Shown one piece after another: positions 1,413-50,729 of a DNA stretch of 64,000 nucleotides; positions within the stretch are counted from its first letter, which is position 1, and every line of letters begins with the position of its first letter. The DNA is from Muricea muricata. Lineage: Eukaryota > Cnidaria > Anthozoa > Malacalcyonacea > Plexauridae. A program made the translations under genes and the position numbers. The notes under the pieces are model-generated. The model ran no database searches, had not been told where the DNA came from, and was given only the letters and a program-made list of their open reading frames with translations. The stretch is taken from NCBI GenBank assembly GCA_963855995.1, contig OY979718.1, positions 28,119,282 to 28,183,281 on the forward strand. Reading direction: 5' to 3'.

Positions 1413-1584
1413 GCCGCACTTTTGATTTGAGAAGGTACACGTTTGACATGAAGACGTACACGTTTGATTTGGTGCAGCAAAGTAAATTAGTGACTTAATT
1501 ATAGCCTTACAGAACCTTACAGACCTTGTCAGTTGTCACGGGTTTGGCCTTGTTGAAAACATGGAGGAAAAGACAAAAGGTATA

Positions 1585-3325
1585 CAGTGCGAACCATGGT
1601 ATTAGTTTTATAAAATATTTATGGCGTGCGTATTCAAAATGAGTATTGTTATTCATTAAAACTTACGAACATCATAACAAAGTTGTGAGAAGATGATCGA
1701 TCCTGGCAGTGTTAATATTTTATGTTAGTCACATTACTGAAAAAATATGGCGCTGTTCCATATTTGAGGTGGACCACGCTATTAGTTTTAAAAATATGAT
1801 AACACGATAGGACGTCGTTTTTAACTTAATTAGAAGTGGAAACGACATTCTTTAACCAAAAACAGCATAGGCAACAACAAGAAAATGTTTTAGTTAGAAA
1901 ATAAACGAAACTTGGTGTCATAGTTGAAGGATTTTTCAAAGATTACGTGGAACGGCGGAAAAGAGGGATTCTGGATTTCTAAAATGGATAAGAATGGGAA
2001 GTATTAGGCGTTTGAAGGAGAACTGTTCGTAAATTATCATGATCAACGTCTGTCAACATTTTGAGAAAGTTTTCTTTGCCATATATCTTCAAAACTAGCA
2101 ATGATGGATTCCTGGTAAGCAAATAATAATTCTAAAAGTACCTCCACTGGTGTCGTGTCAAAAAAATGCTTGAGAGCACAACAGAAGTTTGTCCTTTTGA
2201 CGGGCAGACAAAATCAGCATGATAAAGCTTGGAAAATGCATGCATAGGTTAGATTATTGATATTCAATGATGGTAATAATGTGACCGGCGAAGCTAAGGA
2301 GTCAACAACAAAGTTCTAAAGTAAACGAGTTCTGCTGGTAACAGCGGAAATAGAGATCAGAGGTCTCTTTTGCACATTTAGGCACATATGAAGACATGTT
2401 GGTTGCTAATAATACGGATCTGAATGATCCTTCTACCACTTCTTTGGCAGGTACCAAAAACCTTTCATCAGGAGTTCATTTTCCCCGCATTATAGGGCAT
2501 TATCATGTTGATCTCGACTTGTCTGTCTTGTCTGTCTCGACTTGTTGTGCTTTCATGCACTTTTTGCTTAATCCAGTTTCTTCCATGACAGTAGTTAAGG
2601 TATATTTTTAGAATCATTATTGCTTACCAGGAATCCATCATTACTAGCTTTGAAGATATATGGCAAAGAAAACTTTCTCAAAATGTTGACAGACGTTGAT
2701 CATGATAATTTACGAACAGTTCTCCTTGAAACGCTTAATACCTCCCATTCTTATCCATTTCAGAAATCCATAATCCCTCTTTTCCACCGTTCCACATAAT
2801 CTTTGAAAAATCCTTCAACTATGACACCAAGCTCGTTTATTTTCTAACTAAAACATTCTCTTGTTGTTACCTGTGCTGTTTTTGGTTAATTAAAGAACGC
2901 CGTTTCCACTTCCAATTAAGTTAAAAACGACGTCCTATCGTGTTATGGAACCAGTGGCGGATCTAGCGTAAGTCAAAATAAGTTACCACAGCTCATTCTA
3001 GGATATATTTACATTTTAAAATACCTTCAAAGCAACTTCATTGGTTAGATTTTATTCTTTTGAAATTCATAACCTATGACATTGTTCTAAAGTTATTTTG
3101 AATTTAAAATTGAGCTGCTATAATTTATTTTGACTTACCCTGGATCAGCCACTGTATGGAACAGCGCCATATTTTTTCAGTCATGTGACTAACATCAACT
3201 ATCAACATCGCCAGGATCTTCTCACAACATTGTTATGATGTTCGTAAGTTTTAATGAATAGCAATGTTCATTTTGAATACGTATGGCATAAATATCTTAT
3301 AAAACTAATACCATGGTTCGCACTG
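1585..3325. mobile_element. Mariner-type non-autonomous foldback element, 1.74 kb
   Basis: Two long inverted arms (about 1585-2136 and 2602-3325) face each other across a central segment of about 465 bases. The tips are CAGTGCGAACCATGGTATTAG on the left and its reverse complement on the right. Each tip is flanked by TA (1583-1584 and 3326-3327), the target duplication of the Tc1/mariner superfamily. No transposase frame is visible, so the copy would depend on a relative. The arms have diverged by point changes; the left arm has about 35 extra bases near 1766-1800 and the right arm is interrupted by a separate 203-bp element at 2952-3154. Confidence 0.75.
2952..3154. mobile_element. hAT-type MITE nested in the mariner-type foldback
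   Basis: The element begins CAGTGGCGGATCTAGCG and ends in the inverted complement ...TGGATCAGCCACTG, with roughly 30 bases of terminal inverted repeat reading into 'aagtcaaaataa'. It is flanked by a perfect 8-base duplication, TATGGAAC, at 2944-2951 and 3155-3162. An 8-bp duplication with CAG-starting termini is the hAT signature. The opposite arm of the host element lacks the insert, which gives an internal empty site. A lone similar left end occurs at 51437. Confidence 0.85.
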
Positions 3326-3933
3326 TATTAAGAAATTGTGCTAACAATATTCCAATTTTTAAACAGTGAGGGGCCGTTAGCAATAGTAGGTTTAAATCAT
3401 GTTTTAATTAGATCTTTGTGTCAAGGACATGTTCTAAAACGTCATATACCAGATGCTCCCAAATTTAAATATTGGACGCACTAGCGCAGTGTCTGCACAA
3501 TGCATCATCTATTTACATTTAAATATTTCTACTTGTCGAGCCATACACGTGCGAGGTGAGGCATGGGGGTGGTGTTTGTTGCACTCATGAGTCATTAATT
3601 AATTTGGGGGACTTACCGCATCCTACTCGATTCCCCTGATGTCAGGCCATTGCTGGCTGGTAATTGGGCTTGATAATTTGGTTGAGCAAGTTAATAACTA
3701 AGTAGTAGACTTGAACCTCAACTGTTGTCTGTTTACAATGCTTTATGTTTGTGAGCTCTTGTTTTCAGTCAGTGTCAGGAAGATTCCCTTCACATAAAAT
3801 AATTCTTCATATTACTACCATATACGCCCAGAAGGAAGCAATCCAAATGACAGAAACCCAGGTACATACAAGCAACAATATCTAGCACACTAAGGTGCAA
3901 AGCACCCCACTAATTCCGAATTGTTTTTTTTAT
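3326..3933. other. Intergenic stretch, nothing recognised
   Basis: I see neither a plausible exon nor terminal repeats here; base composition is AT-rich like the surroundings. Confidence 0.4.
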
Positions 3934-4370: not shown

Positions 4371-5112
4371 TTGAGAACTGGCTATCGAGTAGGCTATCGC
4401 TCATATACGACGAGAGTGAGTAAAACAACTGTTTTACTATATAGACAACAACTGCCACCAAAAAAACTTCCCAGTGCCGTTATATTTTATTATATAATAA
4501 TACGCGTTCATTCTGCATTTTCATTGGTCGCGAGCTATGTGTTATTAAAGTACACACGCACGGATGACGTCAACTGCTGGCGTGATTTAATTTAGCTAAT
4601 TTATTTCGCGGGTTTTTGCATGATTTTTGTCAATTTTATTATAATATAAAACAAATAGATTTCATTTTTTTTTGTGCTTTTGTACTGTAATGGATCACAG
4701 ATGACGCCATAGCGTGTGAAGAACAAAAAGTCACGCACTCGACTGCGTCTCGTGCGTACTTTTTTGTTCTTCACACGCTATGACGTCATCTGTGATCTAT
4801 TACAGTACAGACGCACGCAAAAATGAAATCTATTTGTTAAATAAAATATACTTATTAGTCAGTTTTTCAATGTAAACAACTTCGCTAATACCGCATAAAA
4901 CACGACATTTTGTTATTTAAAATTATGTTTCAAACAAATTTTTCCAAGTTTTAAATTCTTAAAAAATATAAACGCTTGTTGAACTCAAAAATGAGCACAG
5001 TTTTTGTTATTATAGCAATTCAAAACAATTATAATCTTTTCCAGCTTTCCGAAGACTTATTCAGTGTTAATTCGTAAAAAAATGCAGTTTATACTTGTTT
5101 AGGTGACATTTA
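4371..5112. mobile_element. Dispersed repeat family R1, copy a (interrupted)
   Basis: This shares a long collinear match with 34180-34636: 'ctatcgctc(a/g)tatacgacgagagtg', then 'ttatatagacaacaactgc', 'cttcccagtgc(c/a)gttatattt', and after a 350-base interruption 'taaaatatacttattag' through 'tttatacttgtttaggtgacat'. Both copies lose similarity right after 'ggtgacat', which gives a shared right boundary. No protein frame is visible. The family name is mine. Confidence 0.7.
4488..4840. mobile_element. Dispersed repeat family R2, copy a, inserted in R1
   Basis: This block is missing from the other R1 copy near 34348 but present by itself at 39401-39738, so it is an independent mobile repeat. Shared landmarks are 'cattggtcg', 'gtacagacgcac', 'gatgacgtca' and 'atctatttgtta'. 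Internally, 'cacagatgacgccatagcgtgtgaagaacaaaaagt' recurs inverted about 30 bases later, making a strong hairpin rich in CRE-like TGACGTCA words. Exact ends are uncertain by several bases. Confidence 0.7.
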
Positions 5113-11218: not shown

Positions 11219-11508
11219 GAAATCGACACTACTGTGAAACTGTCCCCACATTCGTCCTCACAATCCTCCCCACATTCTCCCCACATTCGCCCCACATTCA
11301 TTATGAGATTATATAAACAGATTAAGACCACCTGCGATACCCTTACTATTTCCAATCATTCGAAAAGCCTTTAACTTTATATCAAGCTTTTAGCATTCAA
11401 AATACTTTCAATTTTAGTCTCTGAAGCAATAATAATTACAGCTGTTGCGACTTATACTTTAAAGGTTAAAATAAAAAAATTACCATTTCTGGGGAACAAA
11501 TTTTCTCC

Positions 11509-14500
11509 ATGTTTCTCTGCAACTTAAATGTCAGTCATTGTAATATATATGATATTAACTGTACAATCAATGAGCAATCTGCCTACGAGTGCTACCAACT
11601 TAATTTTCTAGTTACTTCTTCTACAGAATTTTTTTATTTTCACATAAATGATACAGATTTTTATGCTCATTCCAGCCATATATCACAAGTTCTGGGGAAT
11701 AACTTTTGTCTATGTGTTTTTGCATCTTAAATATCAGTAAATTTGAAACAATATCAGCATTAAATGTGCCAGACGAGTTGGGCATGAGTAACATCAACTT
11801 TATTTTCTAATTACCTATTCTATAGATTTTTTTTATTTTCACATACATGGTAAAAATTTTCATGGTGTTTCTAATAACATATCACTATTTCTGCGGAATA
11901 ACTTTTCTGTATCTGTTTATGCATCCTAAATATCAGTCTTTCTAATATGATATTTAGTGTAAAATCAATGAGCTAACTGCGTATCAGTGATACCAATCTA
12001 ATTTTATAGTTACCTATTCTATAAATTTTCTTTATTTTTGCATATATGATATAGATTTTATGCTTTTTCCAACAATATAGCCCAAGTTCTAGGTAATAAC
12101 TTGTCTGTATGTGTTTATGCATCCTAAATATCAGTCATTGTAATATGATGTTTAGTGTACGATCAATGAGCAAACTGCGTATCATTGCTACCAACCTAAT
12201 TTTCTACTTACCTATTCAATAAATTTTTTTATTTTCACATATACGATATGGATTTTCATGCTCTTTCTAACGATATATAACAAGTTCTGGGGAATAACTT
12301 TTCTGTATGCGTTTTTGCCATGTCAGCCGTCGTAATATGATATTTACAATCATTGAGCCAAATACCAACTTAATTTTCTAGTTACCCATTCTATAAATTT
12401 TTTTTATTTTCACATATATGGTATAGATTTTCATGCTCTTTCTAACGATATATAACAACTTCTGGGGAATAACTTTTCTGTATGCGTTTTTGCAACTTAA
12501 ATGTCAGTCATCGTAATATGATATTTACAATCATTGAGCCGAATACCAACTTAATTTTCTAGTTACCTATTCTATAATTTTTTTGTGTTTTCACATATAT
12601 GGTATAGATTTTCATGTTCTTTCTAACGTTATATCACAAGTTCTAGGGAATAACTTTTCTGTATACGTTTTTGCAACTTAAATGTCAGTCATCGTAATAT
12701 GATATTTACAATCACTGAGCCAAATGCGTACGAGCGTTACCTACTTAATTTTCCAGTTACCTATTCTATTAATTTTTTTTGTTTTCACATATATGATATA
12801 GATTTTTATGCTCTTTCTAACGATATATCACAAGTTCTAGGGAATAACTTTTCTGTACGCGTTTTTGCAACTTAAATGTCAGTCATCGTAATATGATATT
12901 TACAATCATTCAGCCAAATGCGTACGAGCGCTACCAACTTAATTTTCTAGTTACCTATTCTATAAATTTTTTTTATTTTCACATATATGATACAGATTTT
13001 CATGCTCTTTCTAACGATATATCAAAAGTTCTGCGCAATAACTTTTCTGTATACGTTTTTGCAACTTAAATGTCAGTCATCGTAATATGATATTTACAAT
13101 CATTCAGCCAAATGCGTACGAGCGTTACCTACTTAATTTTCTAGTTACCTATTCTATAAATTTTTTTTATTTTCACATATATGATACAGATTTTCATGCT
13201 CTTTCTAACGATATATCACAAGTTCTGGGGAATAACTTTTCTGTATGCGTTTTTGCAACTTAAAAATAGGTCATCGTAATATGATATTTACAATCACTGA
13301 GCCAAATGCGTACGAGCGTACCTACTTAATTTTCCAGTTACCTATTCTATAAATTTTTTTTGTTTTCACATATATGATATAGATTTTTATGCTCTTTCTA
13401 ACGATATATCAAAAGTTCTGCGGAATAACTTTTCTGTATGCGTTTTTGCAACTTAAATGTCAGTCATCGTAATATGATATTTACAATCATTGAGCCAAAT
13501 GCGTACGAGCGTTACCTACTTAATTTTCTAGTTACCTATTCTATAAATTTTTTTTGTTTTCACATATATGATATAGATTTTCATGCTCTTTCTAACGATA
13601 TATCACAAGTTCTGGGGAATAACTTTTCTGTTTACGTTTTTGCAACTTAAATATCAGCCATCGTAATATGATATTTACAATCATTGAGCCAAATACCAAC
13701 TTAATTTTCTAGTTACCTATTCCATATATTTTTTTTGTTTTCACATATATGGTATAGATTTTCATGCTCTTTCTAACGATATATCACAAGTTCTGGGGAA
13801 TAACTTTTCTGTATGCGTTTTTGCAACTTAAATGTCAGTCATCGTAATATGATATTTACAATCATTGAGCCAAATGCGTACGAGCGTTACCTACTTAATT
13901 TTCTAGTTACCTATTCTAGAAATTTTTTTTGTTTTCACGTATATGATATAGATTTTCATGTTCTTTCTAACGATAAGTCATAAGTTCTGGGGAATAACTT
14001 TTCTGTATACGTTTTTGCAACATAAATATCAGCAATCGTAATATGATATTTACAATCATTGAGCCAAATACCAACTTAATTTTTTAGTTACCTATTCTAT
14101 AAAGTTTTTTTGTTTTATCATATATGGTATAGATTTTCATGCTCTTTCTAACGATATATCACATGTTCTGGGGAATAACTTTTCTGTATGCGTTTTTTCA
14201 ACTTAAATATCAGCAATCGTAATATTATATTTACAATCATTGAGCCAAATGCGTACGAGCGTTACCTACTTAATTTTCTAGTTACCTATTCTATAATTTT
14301 TTTTTGTTTTCACATATATGATATAGATTTTCATGCTCTTTCTGACGATATATCACAAGTTCTGGGGAATAACTTTTCTGTATACGTTTTTGCAACTTAA
14401 ATATCAGCCATCGTAATTTGATATTTACAATCATTGAGCCAAATACCAACTTAATTTTCTAGTTACCTATTCTATAAATTTTTTTTGTTTTCACATATAT

Positions 14501-14755
14501 GGTATAGATTTTCATGCTCTTTCTAACGATATATCACAAATTCTAAGGAATAACTTTTCTGTATGCGTTTTTGCAACTTAAATGTCAGTCATCGTAATAT
14601 GATATTTGCAATCATTGAGCCAAATGCGTACCAGCGTTACCTACTTAATTTTCTAGTTACCTATTCTATAATTATTTTTTGTTTTCACATATATTATATA
14701 GATTTCATGCTCTTTCTAACGATGTACCACAAGTTCTGTGGAATCAATGTTCTGT
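11509..14755 (+). repeat. Tandem array, left arm of the foldback
   Basis: Around seventeen head-to-tail copies of one unit are present. Inner units come in two alternating lengths, about 194 and 181 bases; the short form lacks the 'gcgtacgagcgttac' segment. Landmarks per unit are 'gtttttgcaacttaaatgtc', 'tcgtaatatgatatttaca', 'ttttctagttacctattcta' and 'acaagttctggggaataac'. The outermost four or five units are clearly more diverged than the inner ones. Repeated ~70-codon open frames arise because the unit happens to be stop-poor in one frame. The unit length is not a multiple of three, so a continuous repeat protein is not encoded. Confidence 0.9.
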
Positions 14756-17700
14756 ATAATATACGTGAAAATAAAAAAAATTATAGAATAGGTAACTAGA
14801 AAATTAAGTTGGTATTTGGCTCAATGATTGTAAATATCATATTACGATGACTGACATTTAAGTTGCGAAAACGCATACAGAAAAGTTATTCCCCAGAACT
14901 TGTGATATATCGTTAGAAAGAGCATGAAAATCTGTATCATATATGTGAAAACAAAAATATTTATAGAATAGTTAACTAGAAAATTAAGTAGGTAGCGCTC
15001 GTACGAATTTGGCTCAATGATTGTACATATCATATTACGATGACTGACATTTAAGTTAGAAAAACGCATAGAGAAAACTTATTCCCCAGAACTTGTGATA
15101 TATCGTTAAAAAGAGCATGAAAATCCATATCATATACGTGAAAATAAAAAAAAATTATTGAATATGTAACTAGAAAAGTAAGTTGGTATTTGGCTCAATG
15201 ATTGTAAATATCATATTACGATGACTGACATTTAAGTTGTGAAAACGCATACAGAAAAGTTATTCCCCAGAACTTGTGATATATAGTTAGAAAGAGCATA
15301 AAAGTCTATACCATATATGTGAAAATAAAAAAAATTTATAGAATAGGTAACTAGAAAATTAAGTAGGTAACGCTCGTACGCATTTGGCTCAATGATTGTG
15401 AATATCATATTACGATGACTGACATTTAAGTTGAAAAAACGCATACAGAAAAGTTATTCCCCAGAACTTGTGATATATGGTTAGAAAGAGCATAAAAATC
15501 TATACCATATATGTGAAAAAAAAAAATTTATAGAATAGGTAAATAGAAAATTAAGTAGGTAACGCTCGTACGCATTTGGCTCAATGATTGTAAATATCAT
15601 ATTACGATGACTGTCATTTAAGTTGCAAAAACGCATGCAGAAAAGTTATTCCCCAGAACTTGTGATATATCGTTAGAAAGAGCATGAAAATCTATATCAT
15701 ATATGTGAAAACAAAAAAAAATTTATAGAATAGGTAACTAGAAAATTAAGTAGGTAACGGTCGTACGCATTTGGCTCAATGATTGTAAATATCATATTAC
15801 GATGACTGACATTTAAGTTGCAAAAACGCATACAGAAAAGTTATTCCCCAGAACTTGTGATATATCGTTAGAAAGAGCATGAAAATCTATACCATATATG
15901 TGAAAATAAAAAAAATTTATAGAATAGGTAACTAGAAAACTAAGTTGGTATTTTGCTCAATGATTGTAAACATCATATTACGATTGCTGATATTTAAGTT
16001 TAAAAAACGCATACAGAAAAGTTATTCCCCAGAACATGTGATATATCGTTAGAAAGAGCATGAAAATTTATACCATATATGTGAAAACAAAAAAAATTTA
16101 TAGAATAGGTAACTAAAAAATTAAGTTGGTATTTGGCTCAATGATTGTAAATGTCATATTACGATTGCTGATATTTATGTTGCAAAAACGTATACAGAAA
16201 AGTTATTCCCCAGAACTTGTGACTTATCGTTAGAAAGAGCATGAAAATCTTTATCATATACGTGAAAACAAAAAAAAATTATAGAATAGGTAACTAGAAA
16301 ATTAAGTAGGTAACGCTCGTACGCATTTGGCTCAATGATTGTAAATATCATATTACGATGACTGACATTTAAGTTGCGAAAACGCATACAGAAAAGTTAT
16401 TCCCCAGAACTTGTGATATACCGTTAGAAAGAGCATAAAAATCTATACCATATATGTGAAAATAAAAAAAATTTATAGAATAGGTAACTAGAAAATTAAG
16501 TAGGTAACGCTCGTACGCATTTGGCTCATGGATTGTAAATATCATATTACGATGACTGTCATTTAAGTTGCAAAAACGCATACAGAAAAGTTATTCCCCA
16601 GAACTTGTGATATATCGTTAAAAAGAGCATGAAAATCTATATCATATATGTGAAAATAAAAAAAATTTATAGAATAGGTAACTAGAAAATTAAGTTGGTA
16701 TTTGGCTCAATGATTGTAAATATCATATTACGATTGCTGATATTTAAGTTGCAAAAACGTATACAGAAAAGTTATTCCCCAGAACTTGTTATATATCGTT
16801 AGAAAGAGCATGAAAATCTATATCATATATGTGAAAACGAAAAAAATTTATAGAATAGGTAACTAGAAAATTAAGTAGGTAACGCTCGTACGCATTTGGC
16901 TCAATGATTGTAAATATCATATTACGATGACTGACATTTAAGTTGCAAAAACGCATACAGAAAAGTTATTCCCCAGAACTTGTGATATATGGTTAGAAAG
17001 AGCATAAAAATCTATACCATATATGTGAAAATAAAAAAAATTTATAGAATAGGTAACTAGAAAATTAAGCAGGTAACGCTCGTACGCATTTGGCTCAATG
17101 ATTTTAAATATCATATTTCGATGACTGACATCTAAGTTGCAAAAACACATACAGAAAAGTTATTCCCCAGAATTTGTGATATATCGTTAGAAAGAGCATG
17201 AAAATCTATACCATATATGTGAAAACAAAAAAAAATTATAGAATAGGTAACTAGAAAATTAAGTTGGTATTTGGCTCAATGATTGTAAATATCATATTAC
17301 GATGGCTGACATGGCAAAAACGCATACAGAAAAGTTATTCCCCAGAACTTGTTATATATCGTTAGAAAGAGCATGAAAATCCATATCATATATGTGAAAA
17401 TAAAAAAAATTATTGAATAGGTAAGTAGAAAATTAGGTTGGTAGCAATGATACGCAGTTTGCTCATTGATCGTACACTAAACATCATATTACAATGACTG
17501 ATATTTAGGATGCATAAACACATACAGACAAGTTATTACCTAGAACTTGGGATATATTGTTGGAAAAAGCATAAAATCTATATCATATATGCAAAAATAA
17601 AGAAAATTTATAGAATAGGTAACTATAAAATTAGATTGGTATCACTGATACGCAGTTGGCTCATTGATTTTACAGTAAATATCATATTAGAGAGACTGGT

Positions 17701-18123
17701 ATTTAGGATGCATAAACAGATACAGAAAAGTTATTCCGCAGAAATAGTGATATGTTATTAGAAACACCATGAAAATTTTTACCATGTATGTGAAAATAAA
17801 AAAAATCTATAGAATAGGTAATTAGAAAATAAAGTTGATGTTACTCATGCCCAACTCGTCTGGCACATTTAATGCTGATATTGTTTCAAATTTACTGATA
17901 TTTAAGATGCAAAAACACATAGACAAAAGTTATTCCCCAGAACTTGTGATATATGGCTGGAATGAGCATAAAAATCTGTATCATTTATGTGAAAATAAAA
18001 AAATTCTGTAGAAGAAGTAACTAGAAAATTAAGTTGGTAGCACTCGTAGGCAGATGGCTCATTGATTGTACAGTTAATATCATATATATTACAATGACTG
18101 ACATTTAAGTTGCAGAGAGACAT
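14756..18123 (-). repeat. Tandem array, right arm of the foldback (inverted)
   Basis: The same satellite-like unit as in the left arm, in opposite orientation, again with the ~194/181-base alternation toward the centre (for example unit starts at 16383, 16577 and 16758) and diverged units at the outer end. The outermost unit (17902-18123) mirrors the outermost left unit (11509-11730) almost base for base. That argues the whole arm is copied or converted as a unit, rather than two arrays having grown independently. Confidence 0.9.
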
Positions 18124-18595
18124 GGAGAAAATTTGTTCCCCAGAAATGGTAATTTTTTTATTTTAACCTTTAAAGTATAAGTCGCAACAGCTGTAATTAT
18201 TATTGCTTCAGAGACTAAAATTGAAAGTATTTTGAATGCTAAAAGCTTGATATAAAGTTAAAGGCTTTTCGAATGATTGGAAATAGTAAGGGTACCGCAG
18301 GTGGTCTTAATCTGTTTATATAATGTCATAATGAATGTGGGGCGAATGTGGGGAGAATGTGGGGAGGAATGTGAGGACGAATGTGGGGACCATTGTGGGG
18401 ACAGTTTCACAGTAGTGAAATCGACCAAGGTCGACTCTACTCAATAGCGACAGACATTGTCTTTGAGCTTTTGGAGCGATCTTTCGGTTCGCGAAGTCAA
18501 AGTGAACAGAAAGAATAATATGCGTTTTAGCTGTGCTATCTTGATGTCATGCTGATCAAAACAAACGTTGAGTCATCACTACACTTTATTATAAA

Positions 18596-22109: not shown

Positions 22110-25100
22110 ATGTTTCGGCCCTTAACTATCCTGATATTGCAGCTACTTCAGTTTACTTCACAAACAAAAGGTGAGTGAATGCGGCTGAGTAAAAGTCGTT
22201 AGGATATATTTCATATATATAGTAACTCGAGACAAATAAAATTGTCGAAAGTATTGTCGTGTAAGCATGAAACTGACTCATCTAGTATCTGTATTCAATC
22301 AGCAAAATGTACTGAATATATTGTATAAATCGTTTTTTAAGCTGATGGAAAAGGCACATCAACGTATTCCGTAATGTTTTACACGGGTCAAGTTTCCATA
22401 TGCTAATGTGTACGCAAGAACTATATAATGCCTTCCGCAAGCAAAATATACAAACATTTCGCAGATCACGGCATCACGTAGAATTCCCATCCATGAATGC
22501 GCGTACAATCATAAATAATATCTTACAATATACATATTTTGTACGTCGATGATGTCGTGTTCCATGTAATTCATGTCGTTTCCTGACAGATCTAGGCAAT
22601 TTCACACAAAACCTTTCTTGTCAGGCCGTCGCTACAAGCTGAATAAATGTTGATCGGCAAAACAATCTTGTAAATATTTCACACTGATTCAATATACATA
22701 CATCGCGTTCATGTTATTTCCCGTTTTCCAAAGCAGGCTGAATAAATAAGATCAACATGATGTATTTGATTACGCTGAGAGCGCGGCCCTGCGCGAGCAA
22801 ATATTTTTGAATAAAATTCGAAGACAAAACGTGGCTGAAAGTCTGGTTCGGATACCTTCGTTCGTACACTGTTTTTACAGCTGCATGATACATACATCGT
22901 TTGAAACCTCTAAAGGTAGGAACATTACATGACATAAGTAATAAGCTAGATATATGCTTCGCAACGACAATCCATAGTTCCAACTGGAACGATATTACAA
23001 TTTCTGAAAACAGGAGGGAGTGAAAACTTTACATTTGCAGTCGTTTGCTGTGGTCAGTGGTAAATCACCAGAGAATAAGTAGATTGTGATGATTGCGACG
23101 CGTTTTACGTCGGCCATATTGGCGGCTTCAATTTTTGACTGACGAAAGTGTAAAGGGGAATCTTCAGATATATAAATATAGCTCAGTGACTCCTCTTCTT
23201 TGTTGGCAATCTCGTTCCCGAACCCGCGATACTTGTACGCGAAAGAGCAAGAGGCGCTGGGATAATCCATAACTTGAAGGCCAGAATGTCGGCATTACTT
23301 GTACTGCGCATGTGTAAAAAGCAACCGCAAACTCTCAACCATTCTGCTGGGCTTCTCCTTTGGAAAGACGGACCATTTATCTAACGTCCGTGCATCACGC
23401 TCATTGGAACTGCGGCTACATAAGTTCATCAGCAGGGTTAAGCTCCGTTGGAACGTATTTCTAAACGGTCATTTGTTGCAGGGGGGCTTCTGGCTTTCGC
23501 TGAAACAAGACGGGCTTCAATTTCCAAATTTCTTGCAGTCCGATCTTCGCCTTTTTGGTTACTACTGACGCAAAGCCTAATGGGTCGAACAACCTCGAAA
23601 TGATGAACGGGATGATTCGTTTCGTGTAGGGTTTCTTTGGCTTCAACTTCACTTCGTATCTGATGGTCTCACTCAGAGGATTCCAAGAAACTCTCAGCGC
23701 TTTAATGCCTTGTTTCCCCTATAGGCTGACTTGGTTCACTCACATTTTGCTTGCAGTGGATTGAGGACTTGACTTAGATGGACCTTGTCTTGCGATGGAA
23801 CAATGCCACTCCTTTGTTTGAAAGCCACTTGATGATTCGTCAATGATTCTCTGAATAGCGTCTTCGTTGATCGACAAGAGGTAATCAGGTCGTTGACATA
23901 TCTGTTTCAATTGATAACGTCTTCTGGTGCGTTTTCACGATGTTCCTCAGCTAATTTCAGCAGCACGTAGCTTGAGACATTAGGGGACGGTTTGTCACTA
24001 AAGGTCACACGAGCAACCTTTTGGTTGACGGTTCTTCAGACGTTCTCATGTGTCCCAGAGAAATCTGTGCACTTGACAGTCGCTTTCGGGCAGGCGAACA
24101 TGCAAGATCATCTTTGAAATGTCCCCCGTAAACGCTACTACTTCTTCTTTAAAGCGAAGTAAAACGCCATGCAAACAGGGACCCTTGCACACAATCCGCA
24201 AAGGGGTGATTTCCTTATCCGCACAATATACTCCATGGTGTGGCAGATAGTATACGAGACCGCTCGCATTCTTTATCTCTGAATATCCAAGTTTTCGTAC
24301 CCATCCATTTCTTTCATATGCGTTGATTGCGTTTGCATAACTCTTAGATTTGATCGGGTTTTTTGTCAAGCTCTTTTCAACAGATTCGAGGCGCCGTTTT
24401 GTCAATAGGTTATTGTTTGGAAGGTCAGCTGGATCTTTCTTCCATGCGAGGCCGATAACGTACCGTCCATTTAGCAGTTTACAGGACGCTTCGAAAAGAT
24501 CCATTGCTTTCTTTCTCTCTCCCGACATTGTTTCTTCTGGACAACTGCAGTTTGGCGCTCGCACTCCGACGGTCTCAAATTCATAGAATACTGCATCAAA
24601 GGATAATTCTTGCATTCTCGCGTACATTTTGCCGTGTGAGCCAAGTCCACTGATTGTACGCTCGGCTTATCCGGTGACATGCATTTTTAAATGAGCCGTT
24701 CTCATGACATTCGACAAATTGTGAATTCAATCAGCTTTGTTTGAATAGATTTGTCTATGAAATTTGAGCGCGTGTGGCACAAGATATGGTTCATTAACTG
24801 ATCGCGACTGAGAATTTTTAAAATTGAGATAAGAATTGAGATTTAATTTAATCTGTATTCAAAGTGGCTGCACAGATTTCATATCTGGAGGCAGAGCATT
24901 CACCTCATTTTTAATTTTTTGATCTCCTGTAAAAATTAAATTCGGGGCAGTGTGCGGTAAATTTTGTCTTTAAAACAGCTAAAAAGAAAGTACTGATCAC
25001 CACTCATCAGGTGGTGTATGTATTTAATTTCATTCAATCAGATCCATTAAATTTCGATCAAGGCCATTTAATTTTAAAAAAGTCATATTTTTTCTTGATA

Positions 25101-28100: not shown

Positions 28101-31100
28101 ATTAACGATACACTTTACATCTTTTGGAATGTCGGTACAACAAACGGATCGAGTCGAATTTATTTTCAAGTCAAGTACTGTCCACTGAATAACTTTCTGG
28201 AGCGACAAAATTGCAAGGAAATAAATATAACGCTTTGCAATGCTTTCTACCAGAGATTACCAAACATTTCTGGCAGCATTTCAACGCCGCAAGATGAGTT
28301 GGCAGATTACACAAAAATTGGTGATAGCGAGTTATTTGCGAAAAATGTTCCTGCTAGCGTCAGTGGTAAATGGAGCGAAACAAATAACGAGTTTATGTGT
28401 GCTGTACACAATATTGACGAATGTGGCATGGCATACGGAGATTTATTCCCGGGCTCCAACGGTGCAGCTGTTAAAGGTCAAATCTTGATCACTGCATCAA
28501 CTGTTTACGACAGAGAAAAAAAACTTCTCGATATAAAGCAAAACTTAGGTATTGTTTTCTTGTTTACTAATTCAATTGCAAAGTTTTTACATTAATGTTA
28601 TTTTTCCTGCATTCGATGTCGTAGATTAGTCAATATATGAATTAATGTGATCATTTAACAATTAGACAACGAGAACGAGTTGTCTATGAGCTGATAGTCA
28701 ACGAGGGCGCAGCCCGAGTTTACTACCTGTTCAGAGACAACGAGGCCGAGTTGTCTAATTGTTTTAGTATACACTCCTAACCAAAATACAAATTATAAAG
28801 GAAATTGGAAAAAAAATAACCAAATATCAAAAGCTCTAACAATTTCAATCTCGCAATCTTCGCGTGGGACGTTTTGTTTACTTTTTGCAACTACGACAGA
28901 ATCTATGCATCTCGCGAGCCTTAAACATTACAAAACACATCTCATAACCGACATATTTGTCAAGAAAATAACAAAAGAAGTTTTCATAGGCATTGAAGCG
29001 CGATATAAAAACATAAGAGGCCATGAAATGAGCAAAAATTTAAACACTGGTTTAATTATAAACACTACAGCTATATGGCTTCTCGAAATCCTGCTTCATT
29101 TTCCGTTAAAAATGGGTTTGAAATTAACCAAAAAGCAACACTAATTTCGCTCTTGTCGATGAAATAACGCCTGTCGAGAAAATTGCTCTCGTCTGAAATT
29201 CATAAACACAGTTTAACATTAATTATAATATAGCATTTGTAAATTCTGAACGCTGATTGGCTAAGAGCCGTGTTGATATAACTCTATGTCAACACGGAAA
29301 ATTTCCCGTCACTCTTCTGTTAAAGTTGTTTGTGCTATATTATAAAAGAAATATAAAACATTTTTTCCGTATTGATATACAGTCATATCAACACTCGTGT
29401 AAATTGGAAAAACTCGAAATTGTGTGAAAACACAATTCCAAGTTTCCACACAATTTCTCGTTTTTCCAATTTCCACTCGTGTTGATATAACTGTATATCA
29501 ACACGGAAAATGTTTTATATTTCTTAAATTTAAACCAAAAACTCAAAACCTATAAAGGCAGCAATTTTTGGCTGGAAATCTCGAAACATACAAAAAATAT
29601 AATTTAAAATTCTAAAACACCCGTAAAATTTTAGAGTTATAAGCATAAATTTACAGTTAAAGCACGTAAAACACAAAGAAGACCCGGAAAACATGGTTAA
29701 ATGATTATGAGTGACTGTAGTTTTAACGATTTCGCTTGCAGTATAACTAACATTTTCACGCAAATAAAAGTAGATTTATCGTTAATATGTTGTTTAAATG
29801 TTGCTTCTTACCTTTGGAAGTCTTCGGACCCTTTTTTGTAGTCTTTTATGCTCTTGGAATATCCCATTTTTGAGGAATTCCTTCGAAACACTCACCAAAC
29901 AAACTTTTCCCGCCATCTTGTTTTGTTGTTTTTCTCAACCATTGTCTATCACGAATAGACCAATGTTGAGAAACCAATCAAAAGTCTGCATTTGTAATAG
30001 TCCATGACTGAGTGTATACTAATATGGATTAGAACACGGGCTAATTTTTTGTTTTGCCTAGTTTTTGCAACGTTTTGTTGATAGAAAAATCCCTTTGCAG
30101 CCTTTTTATTTTACCTTTCCTTTGCAAATCCATGCGTCGATTTTGATGCTATTCAATAAACTCTATTTGCAAACAATTACATACATATAATATCGATAAA
30201 CTATAGTAGCTCTTCGTTCTTTACATATTATCAGTTCAAGATATAATTATGAAAAAGTAGAAGTACGGGTTTGCCCGAATCGAGCTTATCTAAGTTTACA
30301 CCATAGCAGGTAATGCTAAATTAACTACGTTTTTCAATGATGCCCACGGTGATCTGAACAGATGACGGACAATGATATGTAGGCTATTTGAAGGATGTTA
30401 ATCGAATGATGAACTAAAAGTCCCTTCATGGGGATGATCAATTACATATTCATCAATATTCATTCATTCTATAATTATTCTCCGCAGAAAGTAGTACCGA
30501 TTTTTTTAGAGAATAGCTTTTCTTAACATTTTAGTCCGTCCCTAAAATCGACGAAATATTTTCAAACAAATTTGCTGATGTTATTACCTTCAGTCTTCAA
30601 TGAGATCCGTCTCGATTCAAGGATATGTAATGAATTCACCCCAATGATTATGATCTAATTAGAAAAGATGTAAGTGGAATCAGTTTGCATCTATGTCGTG
30701 CATGCGAAGCTCGATTGACCACAAAATTAGAGATGATCTAGTTCCCCACGAAATGGAACTGTTTGTATTGACATTGTTAGGCCACATAGCAAACCATTTC
30801 TTGTTACAACAGTTTATAGACCGTCAGGTGCATTATCGGAATTTTTGGACCATTTTGACCACTATCAAAGCTACTGATAACAAAAACAAAGAAATGTATA
30901 TACTGAGAAATCTAAACTGTAATATGCTAAAAGAAATAAATATTCTAACTTTCCACTGTATAAAATTAAGTCATTCTACAAATTATATCAATTTCACAAC
31001 AGTAATGTATAAACCTAGTTGAACGAGTAGTATAATCCACCACATTGTTACTTATACACGCCAGAAAAACTTTCCGGATAAAAAAACTCTGTGAAGATTA

Positions 31101-37100: not shown

Positions 37101-40100
37101 CTTTTTTAACCTCTCCCTTACGGAGACTGGAGATGGCTCAACATGTTTTATTATCAACTTCCCTTTATTTGTAGATGAGGGTTAAAATTTTGTCATAATA
37201 TCATCGTTACGCTCATTGATTGATTGACTAACAAAGGAAGGATTTGTTACCCCTTGCATTAGTTAATTGCGGGAATTCCCAGGACACTCGTGTCGCCAAT
37301 GCATAGCCTTTCCACATGAAAAGCAGTTTCCGGGTCTAAGTGTGCGCATGGTTAATAGAGTAGATGGTTTGGAAACTCATTAGAATAACAATATAACTCA
37401 TTATCTATGTTGTTCAACGTTTATTCAAAAATATGGTTCTTCATCGTCACGTGTGTATTGTGTTTTTGCCAAATCCACCAATAGGAGTTCTTAAATTACC
37501 CTATTGTTCAGGTCGCGGATGGCTAAATTTCCTAAAACGTTGCTATTGGTTAGTTAGGTGAAAATACAATACGCACGTGACGACGAAGGACCTCATTCCT
37601 GCATAAACCAGAACAAAAACATTGATAATGACTTATATTGTAGTTCTAATGAGTTTCCAAACCATCTAGCTCTATTAACTATGGTGTGCGTTTGTATACA
37701 CTTGATTGTGCTTGAAAAGGACGAGACTGTATGGCAGGCAACCTGATTCTCAGGGTCTTCACCTCCGCTACCCGCGCTACGGCGAAGAGCGTCTTCGCCG
37801 TAGCGCGGGTAGCGGAGGTGAAGACCCTGAGAATCAGGTTGTATGGCAGGTTTCGGTTGTTTAATAACCGCATCTTGTATATTACGGGGCTTTGGGAAAG
37901 AGTTGACTTTCAATTTGGACTTATTTTGTTTTCTCTTTGCTTTCGCTCTGATTTCAGATTTGAAAATGCGCTTTTCGTCTTCCGAATTATCGGCAAGCTC
38001 ATGTTTCTTGTATTCATGAACTGCTACCCAGCTAAACCCCGATTTATCAGCTAGCAGAATATGTTTCTTTCGTTCACGCCTTAACTGCTCACCTTTCTTA
38101 ATCTCCTCTTGTGCTTTGGATATTTCTTTGTGCTGTAAAAAAAACTGACGCTTCGGCCATTGTGTCAATGATTTGAGTGTTGAACTTGAACAGACCCTCG
38201 TTGGCCTTCTTCTTGAGATTGTAAGGCGGAATTCCATTCAGTGCGATTTAGCAAGCGCTCGATTTTGTGCGATCGTTTTCTTTTGAAATGTGTGAGGTCA
38301 AGTAGAACGAATTCATTAGATATGGCTGACTGAATACACTTCAGAAGAAAGCGATCGCAAAATTCCGCGCGCTCGCTAAATTGCACTGAATGGAAATCAG
38401 CCTTAAGGCTCCGTGTATTTAAACAGAGGATAGCAATTTACCGTTGTTCTTCTCGATTTCTTTGCGGATTCTGTTTGTTGTTTGGCCATGATCGAATTGT
38501 GATGAAACAATGGTTTTTTGTTTTTCCAAAATTAGAAGTTTTCCTCGTGGGAGCATGCGTAGAGTGGCCGCACCATGTGTTATATCTACTTGTATACCAG
38601 AATCTGCATTATCCTGCACTGCACCATGCCAAAATATACATTTCTGTCTACTTCATGTTATTTATACGACAGAAAATGAATGTACTCACAGGTTATGTCT
38701 AGACACATGCACCGCTGCATTGTTCATTGTAATTTTTTCTTCATGTGGAATAAAAGTCACACGCGTTTTAAAACATAGTGACAAAAAGCGCACGCTGGCG
38801 TTTGTGCGAAAAAAACTTGACGTACTATAGCTGGCCCAAGGTAGTGATTACAGACAGTGGCGTAGCCAGCCCGACAGTTTAGTCCCGCTATGCAAATTTC
38901 AAGTTATTTTCAAATTATTATCATTATTTATTTCTTTAGAAATTAATTGTTTTCACAGTCAATGAACAGGAAAATATTTGCATAGCGGGACTAATTCGTC
39001 GGGCTGGCTACGCTACTGATAACAGATATTATTATTACCTAGGCTTTCTCTTTACTTTTTGTCGTCAATAAACTTGTATGCGCATTGTATGTTGCTAGTT
39101 CAAAACAGTTGCTTCTACATGACTGTAAAATACAAGCAATCAAGTGTCGTTAACTTTCAATATCTATATTGTTAAAGTCATGTTTTGTTTAGATAATTCA
39201 AAAAAGTTGATGAATATTCGAGCTGTCGTCATTTCATGCAGTGTTTTTATTGTTTTACTTTTAATTCCAGTTTTATGTTGGAGGTAAGGTTTTTTGTTAA
39301 GATATATAATTATTCTAATAATTTAGCGAAATTTAGCTACATGATTTAGACTTTAATCGAGACTATTATATTGTTTTTAGCGGGAATACAAACGTTATTG
39401 AACTTTATACAATAATGAGTGATTTTATACTGAATTTGCATTGGTCGAAAGCTGTGTGTTATTATAGTACAGACGCACAGATGACGTCAGCCAATGATGT
39501 GACGTAGTTGAGGAAATGTTTTCGCGTGTTTTCCTGCAGGTTTATCTGAGCTGTCTTATTGTATCAAACAAATATGTAGACTTTATTTTTTGTCTTTCTG
39601 TACTATAATAGATCACAAAAGGCGTCATTGCGTGCGAAGGACAAAAAGTTACGGCACTCAACTTTCTCTTCGCACACCATGACGTCATATATGGTCTAGT
39701 ACAGTACAGACGCACGCAAAAATGAGATCTATTTGTTAATTGGAAGATTTGTCAGCCGCCATATTGTTTTCTATACTTGCAGAATTTAAGCTAAATTCCT
39801 GTTTGAATGCTGTCAATCAGCTGCTTGGAGAATCTCTTATATCCAACACATGCTTAATTGCAATGAACATAATAATACAATAATTAATCCTTTCTTTTTT
39901 CTCTTATAGAATAAAAGAAAAGAATAAATCTAGGTTAGCAGAACTAGCAGATGTAAAGGTCAGCTTATAAGGACCTTATTTTTCTTCAGAAGGGGTTGGA
40001 TTTTTAAACTGAAAATTTTCCCACTCACATATTTCTTTAATTTACCCATTCCCGATAATTTCAAACAAAATTCATACTGTACTGCAAAATTATGAAAGTA

Positions 40101-50575: not shown

Positions 50576-50729
50576 ATTACTTCATGGTTGGTTCGTTTGT
50601 ACGATTTTTATTATTCACTCGTTGTGAAGGATCGCTAAACTCACTCGTTCGCTGCGCTCACTCGTTCGTTTAACGATCCTTCACAACTCGTGAATAAAAA
50701 TCGTACGCACTCACCAACCATGAAGTAAT
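50576..50729. repeat. Palindromic MITE, ~154 bp
   Basis: 'attacttcatggttggt' starts the left arm and 'accaaccatgaagtaat' ends the right one. In between, 'gtacgatttttattattcac' pairs with 'gtgaataaaaatcgtac' and 'gtgaaggatcg' with 'cgatccttcac'. The turn contains direct copies of 'cactcgttcg' around 'ctgcgct'. Confidence 0.75.

Follow-up and report, generated by a model that had tools for sequence, protein, structure and literature searches.

The stretch of DNA analyzed here, 64 kb in length and hereafter called the window, contains a 7.2-kb element built of two inverted arms of tandem repeats (table 1). On the + strand of the window, GAAATCGAC is found at two sites only, 11219 and 18417, where it forms perfect 9-bp direct flanks, and the 15-mer ACTACTGTGAAACTG occurs once per orientation, at 11228 (+) and at 18402–18416 (−), both at the borders of the element. 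The inverted ends and identical 9-bp flanks put forward in the original prediction are therefore real features of the locus, and a 9-bp duplication at inverted ends, which is the mobility mark of foldback-type elements, is present in this one copy. Given the base composition, the chance of a 9-bp match exactly at the borders is 7.8e-6; it would be 0.003 if the borders could slide by ~10 nt on each side, but this correction is not applicable because the tips fix the borders of the element. Apart from the 9-bp copies, the DNA flanking the element on the left differs from that on the right.

Table 1. Positions of the Features of the 7.2-kb Element in the Window
Feature	Position	Strand	Details or basis
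Whole element	11228–18416		7.2 kb, between 9-bp copies of GAAATCGAC
Left target-site duplication GAAATCGAC	11219–11227	+	Exact-match count in window
Left tip ACTACTGTGAAACT, shared inverted end	11228–11241	+	14 nt
Left subterminal minisatellite GTCCCCACATTC	11242–11299	+	Period 11–12, ~5 copies (TRF)
Left terminal segment	11300–11596	+	
Left outer zone, units L01–L04	11597–12366	+	199, 199, 198, 174 nt
Left inner zone, units L05–L16 and truncated L17	12367–14757	+	L05–L16, 181 or 193–194 nt; L17, 116 nt
Central spacer, in register	14758–14874	−	117 nt; rest of R17 and partial R18
Right inner zone as paired in register	14875–17265	−	R05–R16 and about two-thirds of R17
Right outer zone, units R01–R04	17266–18035	−	199, 199, 198, 174 nt
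Right terminal segment, mirror of left	18036–18332	−	
Right subterminal minisatellite	18333–18402	−	11–12 bp, ~6 copies (TRF)
Right tip, inverted copy of ACTACTGTGAAACT	18403–18416	−	
Right target-site duplication GAAATCGAC	18417–18425	+	Exact-match count in window

Within the window, the tip sequence ACTACTGTG is found nowhere except at both ends of the 7.2-kb element, no second full copy with the same ends was found, and the rest of the window gave short matches only (best E 0.028). The 22-nt pattern of the tip had no match in viral_contigs, nor its 19-nt pattern in genome_contigs, nor a 26-nt pattern of the repeat unit in either collection; these absences carry little weight since both collections hold viral or prokaryotic DNA only. 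The 473 nt of the left end had no match among phage records, the 15-nt tip searched as a text string had none in the literature, the tip was matched to no named transposon family, and no empty insertion site came up.

Coding Potential and Neighboring Elements

The element contains no ORF of at least 150 aa, no transposase gene was found in it, and the longest stop-to-stop frame that overlaps it measures 87 aa. A 73-aa frame is open in many of the inner units, with a frame of 47 aa in others, and its candidacy as a protein was examined over 25 inner units: the changes at codon positions 1, 2, and 3 number 34, 31, and 28, and the variants comprise 72 replacement, 18 silent, and 3 stop changes (expected fractions 0.735, 0.244, and 0.021). 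Given this even spread over codon positions and these near-expected variant classes, the variants of the frame look neutral, and it was rejected as a protein candidate. The element looks non-coding. At the scale of the window, 10 ORFs selected from the 38 stop-to-stop ORFs of at least 90 aa were compared with Pfam, and none scored above the curated cut-off.

Two ORFs of the window, 24046–24666 (−) and 37593–38237 (−), look like retroelement remnants although neither has a Pfam family above the cut-off; some relatives have Pfam domains of the reverse-transcriptase, protease, or zinc-knuckle type. Both match proteins of a 370,294-nt ENA contig at 99%, with small differences, and this contig possibly represents another haplotype of the same species. 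Their named matches are from the octocoral Paramuricea clavata (both ORFs) and from the sea anemone Actinostola sp. and the tunicate Styela clava (one each).

The window also holds a smaller inverted-arm element at 1582–3328, in which 1582–1762 pairs with 3155–3328 at 88% and 1799–2140 with 2603–2946 at 93%; its ends are CAGTGCGAACCATGG, with TA adjoining on both sides, and we take it to be Tc1/mariner-like. Nested inside it, at 2952–3154, lies a MITE-like insertion that starts with CAGTGGCGGATC, is partly palindromic (67%), and is flanked by the 8-bp duplication TATGGAAC; this insertion is presumably hAT-like. Short full-length palindromes of 67–97% identity occur at 4650–4838, 29346–29525, 37347–37683, 37739–37841, 38855–39018, 50576–50729, and elsewhere, and give the impression of a region rich in MITE-like foldbacks. 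Of 30 inverted-repeat segments listed, 5 had possible flanking duplications of 7–11 bp in a loose scan.

Organization of the Arms and Their Center

From the outside inward, each arm consists of a tip, a short run of 11–12-bp repeats (5 or 6), a terminal segment, and the tandem units, of which an anchor search found 17 on the left and 18 on the right, the innermost one being truncated in each arm. The original prediction had noticed the inverted tips and missed the 11–12-bp minisatellite, the repeats of which are likely candidates for transposase-binding iterons. It was also right about arms of tandem units, whereas the single unit length of ~190 bp that it gave does not hold: the outer units follow the series of lengths listed in table 1, and the inner ones are mostly 194 or 181 nt, the difference being a 13-bp insertion. 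Inside the left terminal segment, the stretch 11347–11596 can be recognized as a unit that has decayed: over 220 aligned bases, it keeps 75% identity to the consensus of the inner units, with a score of 133, whereas none of 200 shuffles scored above 50.

When the arms are paired in register, the left one covers 11228–14757 (3,530 nt) and the right one 14875–18416 (3,542 nt), and with the split at 14757, their alignment of 3,501 columns shows 95.1% identity. Five internal indels of 12–13 bp separate them (gaps below 4 nt being left out of this list), and the order of unit lengths differs between the two. The inversion point lies at ~14757, and the remainder of R17 and the partial R18, which make up the spacer, run up to it. 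In a shifted register, with L17 paired to R18, the stem closes on a 48-nt loop (14703–14750). The fold of the 651 nt across the center, taken as single-stranded DNA, agrees with this L17/R18 pairing and reaches −224 kcal/mol, whereas 20 shuffles average −50 kcal/mol, a difference of 45 standard deviations in favor of the real sequence. The two long inverted arms of the original prediction are thus present, but its absence of spacer is not, since 117 nt or a 48-nt loop, depending on the register, remain between them; "near spacer-free" is a fair description. The center of the palindrome is imperfect. Overall, a large palindrome is present in the sequence, nearly but not wholly spacer-free, and its long inverted termini made of internal tandem repeats are the structure by which foldback elements are recognized.

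Inverted duplications with next to no spacer are also a known class of assembly or library artifact, in which a folded-back read makes a second arm out of the first, and the palindrome described here is read from assembled sequence. However, such a copy sits poorly with arms that differ by ~5%, by five internal indels, and by the order of their unit lengths, and with outer ends placed between identical 9-bp copies in different flanks, so that we regard an artifact as very unlikely.

Similarity among the Repeat Units

The 33 units longer than 150 nt were compared with one another and placed in a tree. The mirror pairs formed by units 1–4 are 100, 98, 99.5, and 98.3% identical; for L01–L03 and R01–R03, the next best match among the other full units reaches only 78–83%, and for unit 4, it reaches 92.5% (L) and 94.3% (R). 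From unit 5 inward, the best partner often lies at another position or within the same arm. In the tree, two cross-arm pairs are offset by three units, L13/R10 (99/95) and L14/R11 (99/96), the 99% being ultrafast bootstrap values, and R06, R14, R09, and R15 form a one-arm group, the support of which (93/88) is under the mark for strong support; support is below 80 on 15 of the 29 inner branches. These shifted cross-arm pairs, together with the one-arm group, point to gain and loss of units.

Between the arms, 13 of 1,139 sites differ in the outer zone, against 18 of 543 in the inner cross-arm pairs L11/R07, L13/R10, and L14/R11 (Fisher p = 0.003), these three pairs having been chosen as the best-matching ones, a choice that works against a difference between the zones. 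This contrast fits a recent conversion of the outer zone but is no proof of one, because the inner pairs are possibly not positional counterparts and the sites are not independent of one another.

Three other accounts of the arms are not supported. Pairing the inner arms unit by unit in a fixed register gave a mean identity of 0.922–0.939 over 13 offsets, with the best at −3 and none strongly ahead. Separate histories of the two arms would cluster the L and R labels on the tree, where they are unclustered (13 changes, against 11.3–11.4 in shuffles). Finally, an origin of the palindrome by snap-back from the last left unit would make L17 the expected partner of R18, but the best match of R18 is L08 (52), ahead of R08 and L09 (50) and of R10 and L17, which tie (48). 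In favor of a snap-back, L17 and R18 have one base in common that is absent from all other inner units, and the two strands show a short near-match there (TCTGTAT vs. TCTATAT).

Occurrence of the Unit in Public Sequences

With the translated unit as a probe (it is not taken for a gene), a protein search limited to E ≤ 1 retrieved 89 clusters with 321 member sequences, all 89 candidates being retained (weakest 5.1e-14) and all coming from ENA. The longest contigs listed for each cluster have 42 different sizes, from 11 kb to 3.8 Mb, and the 370,294-nt contig mentioned above is absent from the contigs listed for the unit. Judging from these matches, the unit is a dispersed repeat, and the clusters may come from one species, from two haplotypes, or from several species. 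These dispersed units may belong to further copies of the 7.2-kb element. Cluster P0165, considered as a possible edge of a second copy, scores higher to the inner unit (205) than to the outer one (186). Within the range P0079–P0167, the 20 of 89 clusters that were read out comprise at least two unit types by translation, EPNAYERYL and EQNAHERYQ; the latter includes P0096, which has 84 members, is listed with one contig of 2,200,137 nt, and may correspond to long arrays.

A dispersed satellite would also be compatible with an array that was inverted in place, with the tips and the 9-bp match arising by chance or secondarily. This reading is very unlikely, because it leaves without explanation the exact mirroring of tips, iterons, and terminal segment at both borders, next to a perfect 9-bp direct flank.

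Discussion

The anatomy of the element, its 9-bp duplication, the mirror identity of its outer units, the turnover of its inner units, the lack of any sign of coding selection, and the occurrence of its unit on many contigs constitute the observed basis of our interpretation, drawn from a single full copy known from assembled sequence. On this basis, the locus very probably carries a non-autonomous foldback DNA transposon, inserted here as one copy and mobilized in trans, most likely by a transposase of the Mutator/Rehavkus type. The 9-bp duplication at inverted ends argues for a transposase that inserts with a 9-bp stagger, and this enzyme would act in trans, as the element itself yielded no gene. 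A transposase made elsewhere would recognize the inverted ends (tip and 11–12-bp iterons), excise the element as double-stranded DNA, and insert it with this stagger. The inverted non-coding arrays would have grown out of the subterminal segment through unequal exchange, which predicts a decayed outermost unit and inner units that are alike, as observed. The kinship of the arms could stem from an inverted duplication or from arm-to-arm conversion, with inner units later turning over in each arm. The original prediction saw in the replication instability of such a palindrome a real puzzle for its persistence and spread. This puzzle is softer than claimed, with arms ~5% apart, 12–13-bp indels between them, and a center that departs from a perfect palindrome; this divergence and these indels would reduce hairpin formation, and the palindrome would be no bar to spread because movement as double-stranded DNA needs no hairpin.

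As to the enzyme, the Mutator/Rehavkus (MULE) class is the most likely one by analogy: 9 bp fall in the ~8–11-bp range of duplications of the Mutator superfamily, and the element associates, as Rehavkus does, a 9-bp duplication with satellite or minisatellite sequences in or beside inverted termini. A foldback element mobilized by a transposase of another superfamily (e.g., P/Galileo-like, hAT-like, or Merlin-like) seems unlikely to us. hAT duplications are of 8 bp and Merlin ones of 8–9 bp, so that the size found here speaks against the former and does not tell against the latter. It also differs from the 7 bp described for Galileo (PMC3573991). In favor of an enzyme of this kind, Galileo belongs to the P superfamily (PMC3573991), and a foldback structure may, according to the Tetris paper, emerge independently in several lineages (PMC4079207).

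If the reading as a trans-mobilized foldback transposon is right, the element offers a large and well-preserved case, from what is perhaps an anthozoan genome, of foldback transposons that carry and spread satellite-like arrays. The unit-by-unit comparison of its arms, which separates zones of high arm identity from zones of unit turnover, also gives a way into the making and maintenance of long inverted arms. A more speculative extension, which we consider possible though rather doubtful, is that the element works as a satellite factory under two regimes: arm-to-arm conversion, perhaps via a hairpin or during transposition, would keep the outer ~1.1 kb of each arm nearly identical, and the inner ~2.4 kb would turn over freely, while transposition seeds inverted arrays genome-wide.

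Comparison with Known Systems

The likenesses to Tetris and Rehavkus concern their described structure. Tetris, a foldback element of Drosophila virilis, carries units of ~220 bp in inverted termini and has duplications of 8–10 bp; its termini, up to 1,735 bp long, comprise outer flanking, inner, and middle domains, its units also form satellite-like arrays, and a place in Mutator is suggested by its authors (PMC4079207). Like Tetris, the element described here is non-coding and has long inverted termini with an outer domain followed by tandem units; unlike Tetris, it has arms of ~3.5 kb, 17–18 units, and hardly any middle. In Tribolium castaneum, Rehavkus-1_TC is a 9.5-kb transposon with a 164-bp satellite in inverted termini, in arrays mostly of 5 and 8 monomers (PMC10218199). 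Our element shares with it the satellite in inverted termini and with Rehavkus the 9-bp duplication, but it has no transposase, and its arrays are of other sizes. For Rehavkus, PMC6446971 describes 9-bp duplications and a PHD-finger transposase, as well as termini of 26–400 bp and a minisatellite that precedes the 3′ terminus, a plan that resembles our element less than the Tribolium description does; the consulted portion of that source draws the group from insects and annelids only and gives duplications of 9–11 bp for its Mutator groups.

Subfamily F of Galileo has tandem units of ~210 bp, the number of which can vary between ends and is two or three in the described copies; its duplications are of 7 bp, and its termini reach ~1.26 kb (PMC3573991). 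It thus resembles our element by inverted termini of units in the ~200-bp class and by unequal counts per end, and differs from it by the 9-bp duplication, the 17–18 units, and the ~3.5-kb arms found here. The THAP domain of the Galileo transposase is described as binding sites near the end and inside the tandem repeats, and in the text available, binding of tandem repeats by the transposase is untested in print for Foldback and Phantom. Tm1, a Mutator/foldback element of Meloidogyne placed in Mutator by its authors, leaves duplications of 8–10 bp, mostly 9, and has composite termini with short tandem repeats (~14-bp units), the two termini of one element being on average 93.15% identical (PMC3169594). 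The 9-bp duplication, composite termini with short repeats, and highly alike arms are common to both elements, but the tier of ~190-bp units has no counterpart described for Tm1 in the portion of PMC3169594 at hand. Nothing closer appears in the available portions of PMC4298943, PMC13359780, or PMC2872659 (coral MITEs), and the cnidarian, coral, and octocoral literature holds no such element among the matches listed, most subscription journals and probably Repbase Reports being outside this literature.

The foldback reading of the original prediction and its likeness to FB and Galileo were apt. In contrast, Tetris, Galileo F, and Rehavkus-1_TC contradict the shorter repeats that the prediction attributed to known elements, and its claim to novelty fails since all three have units of comparable length in inverted termini. 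The element is unusual in its size: each arm counts 17–18 units and is twice the length of the longest termini of Tetris, and there is hardly any middle. The arms of Drosophila FB, which can also be long, stand outside this comparison. The element is therefore a new, unusually long, and almost spacer-free member of an already known foldback kind, and not a new class of element.
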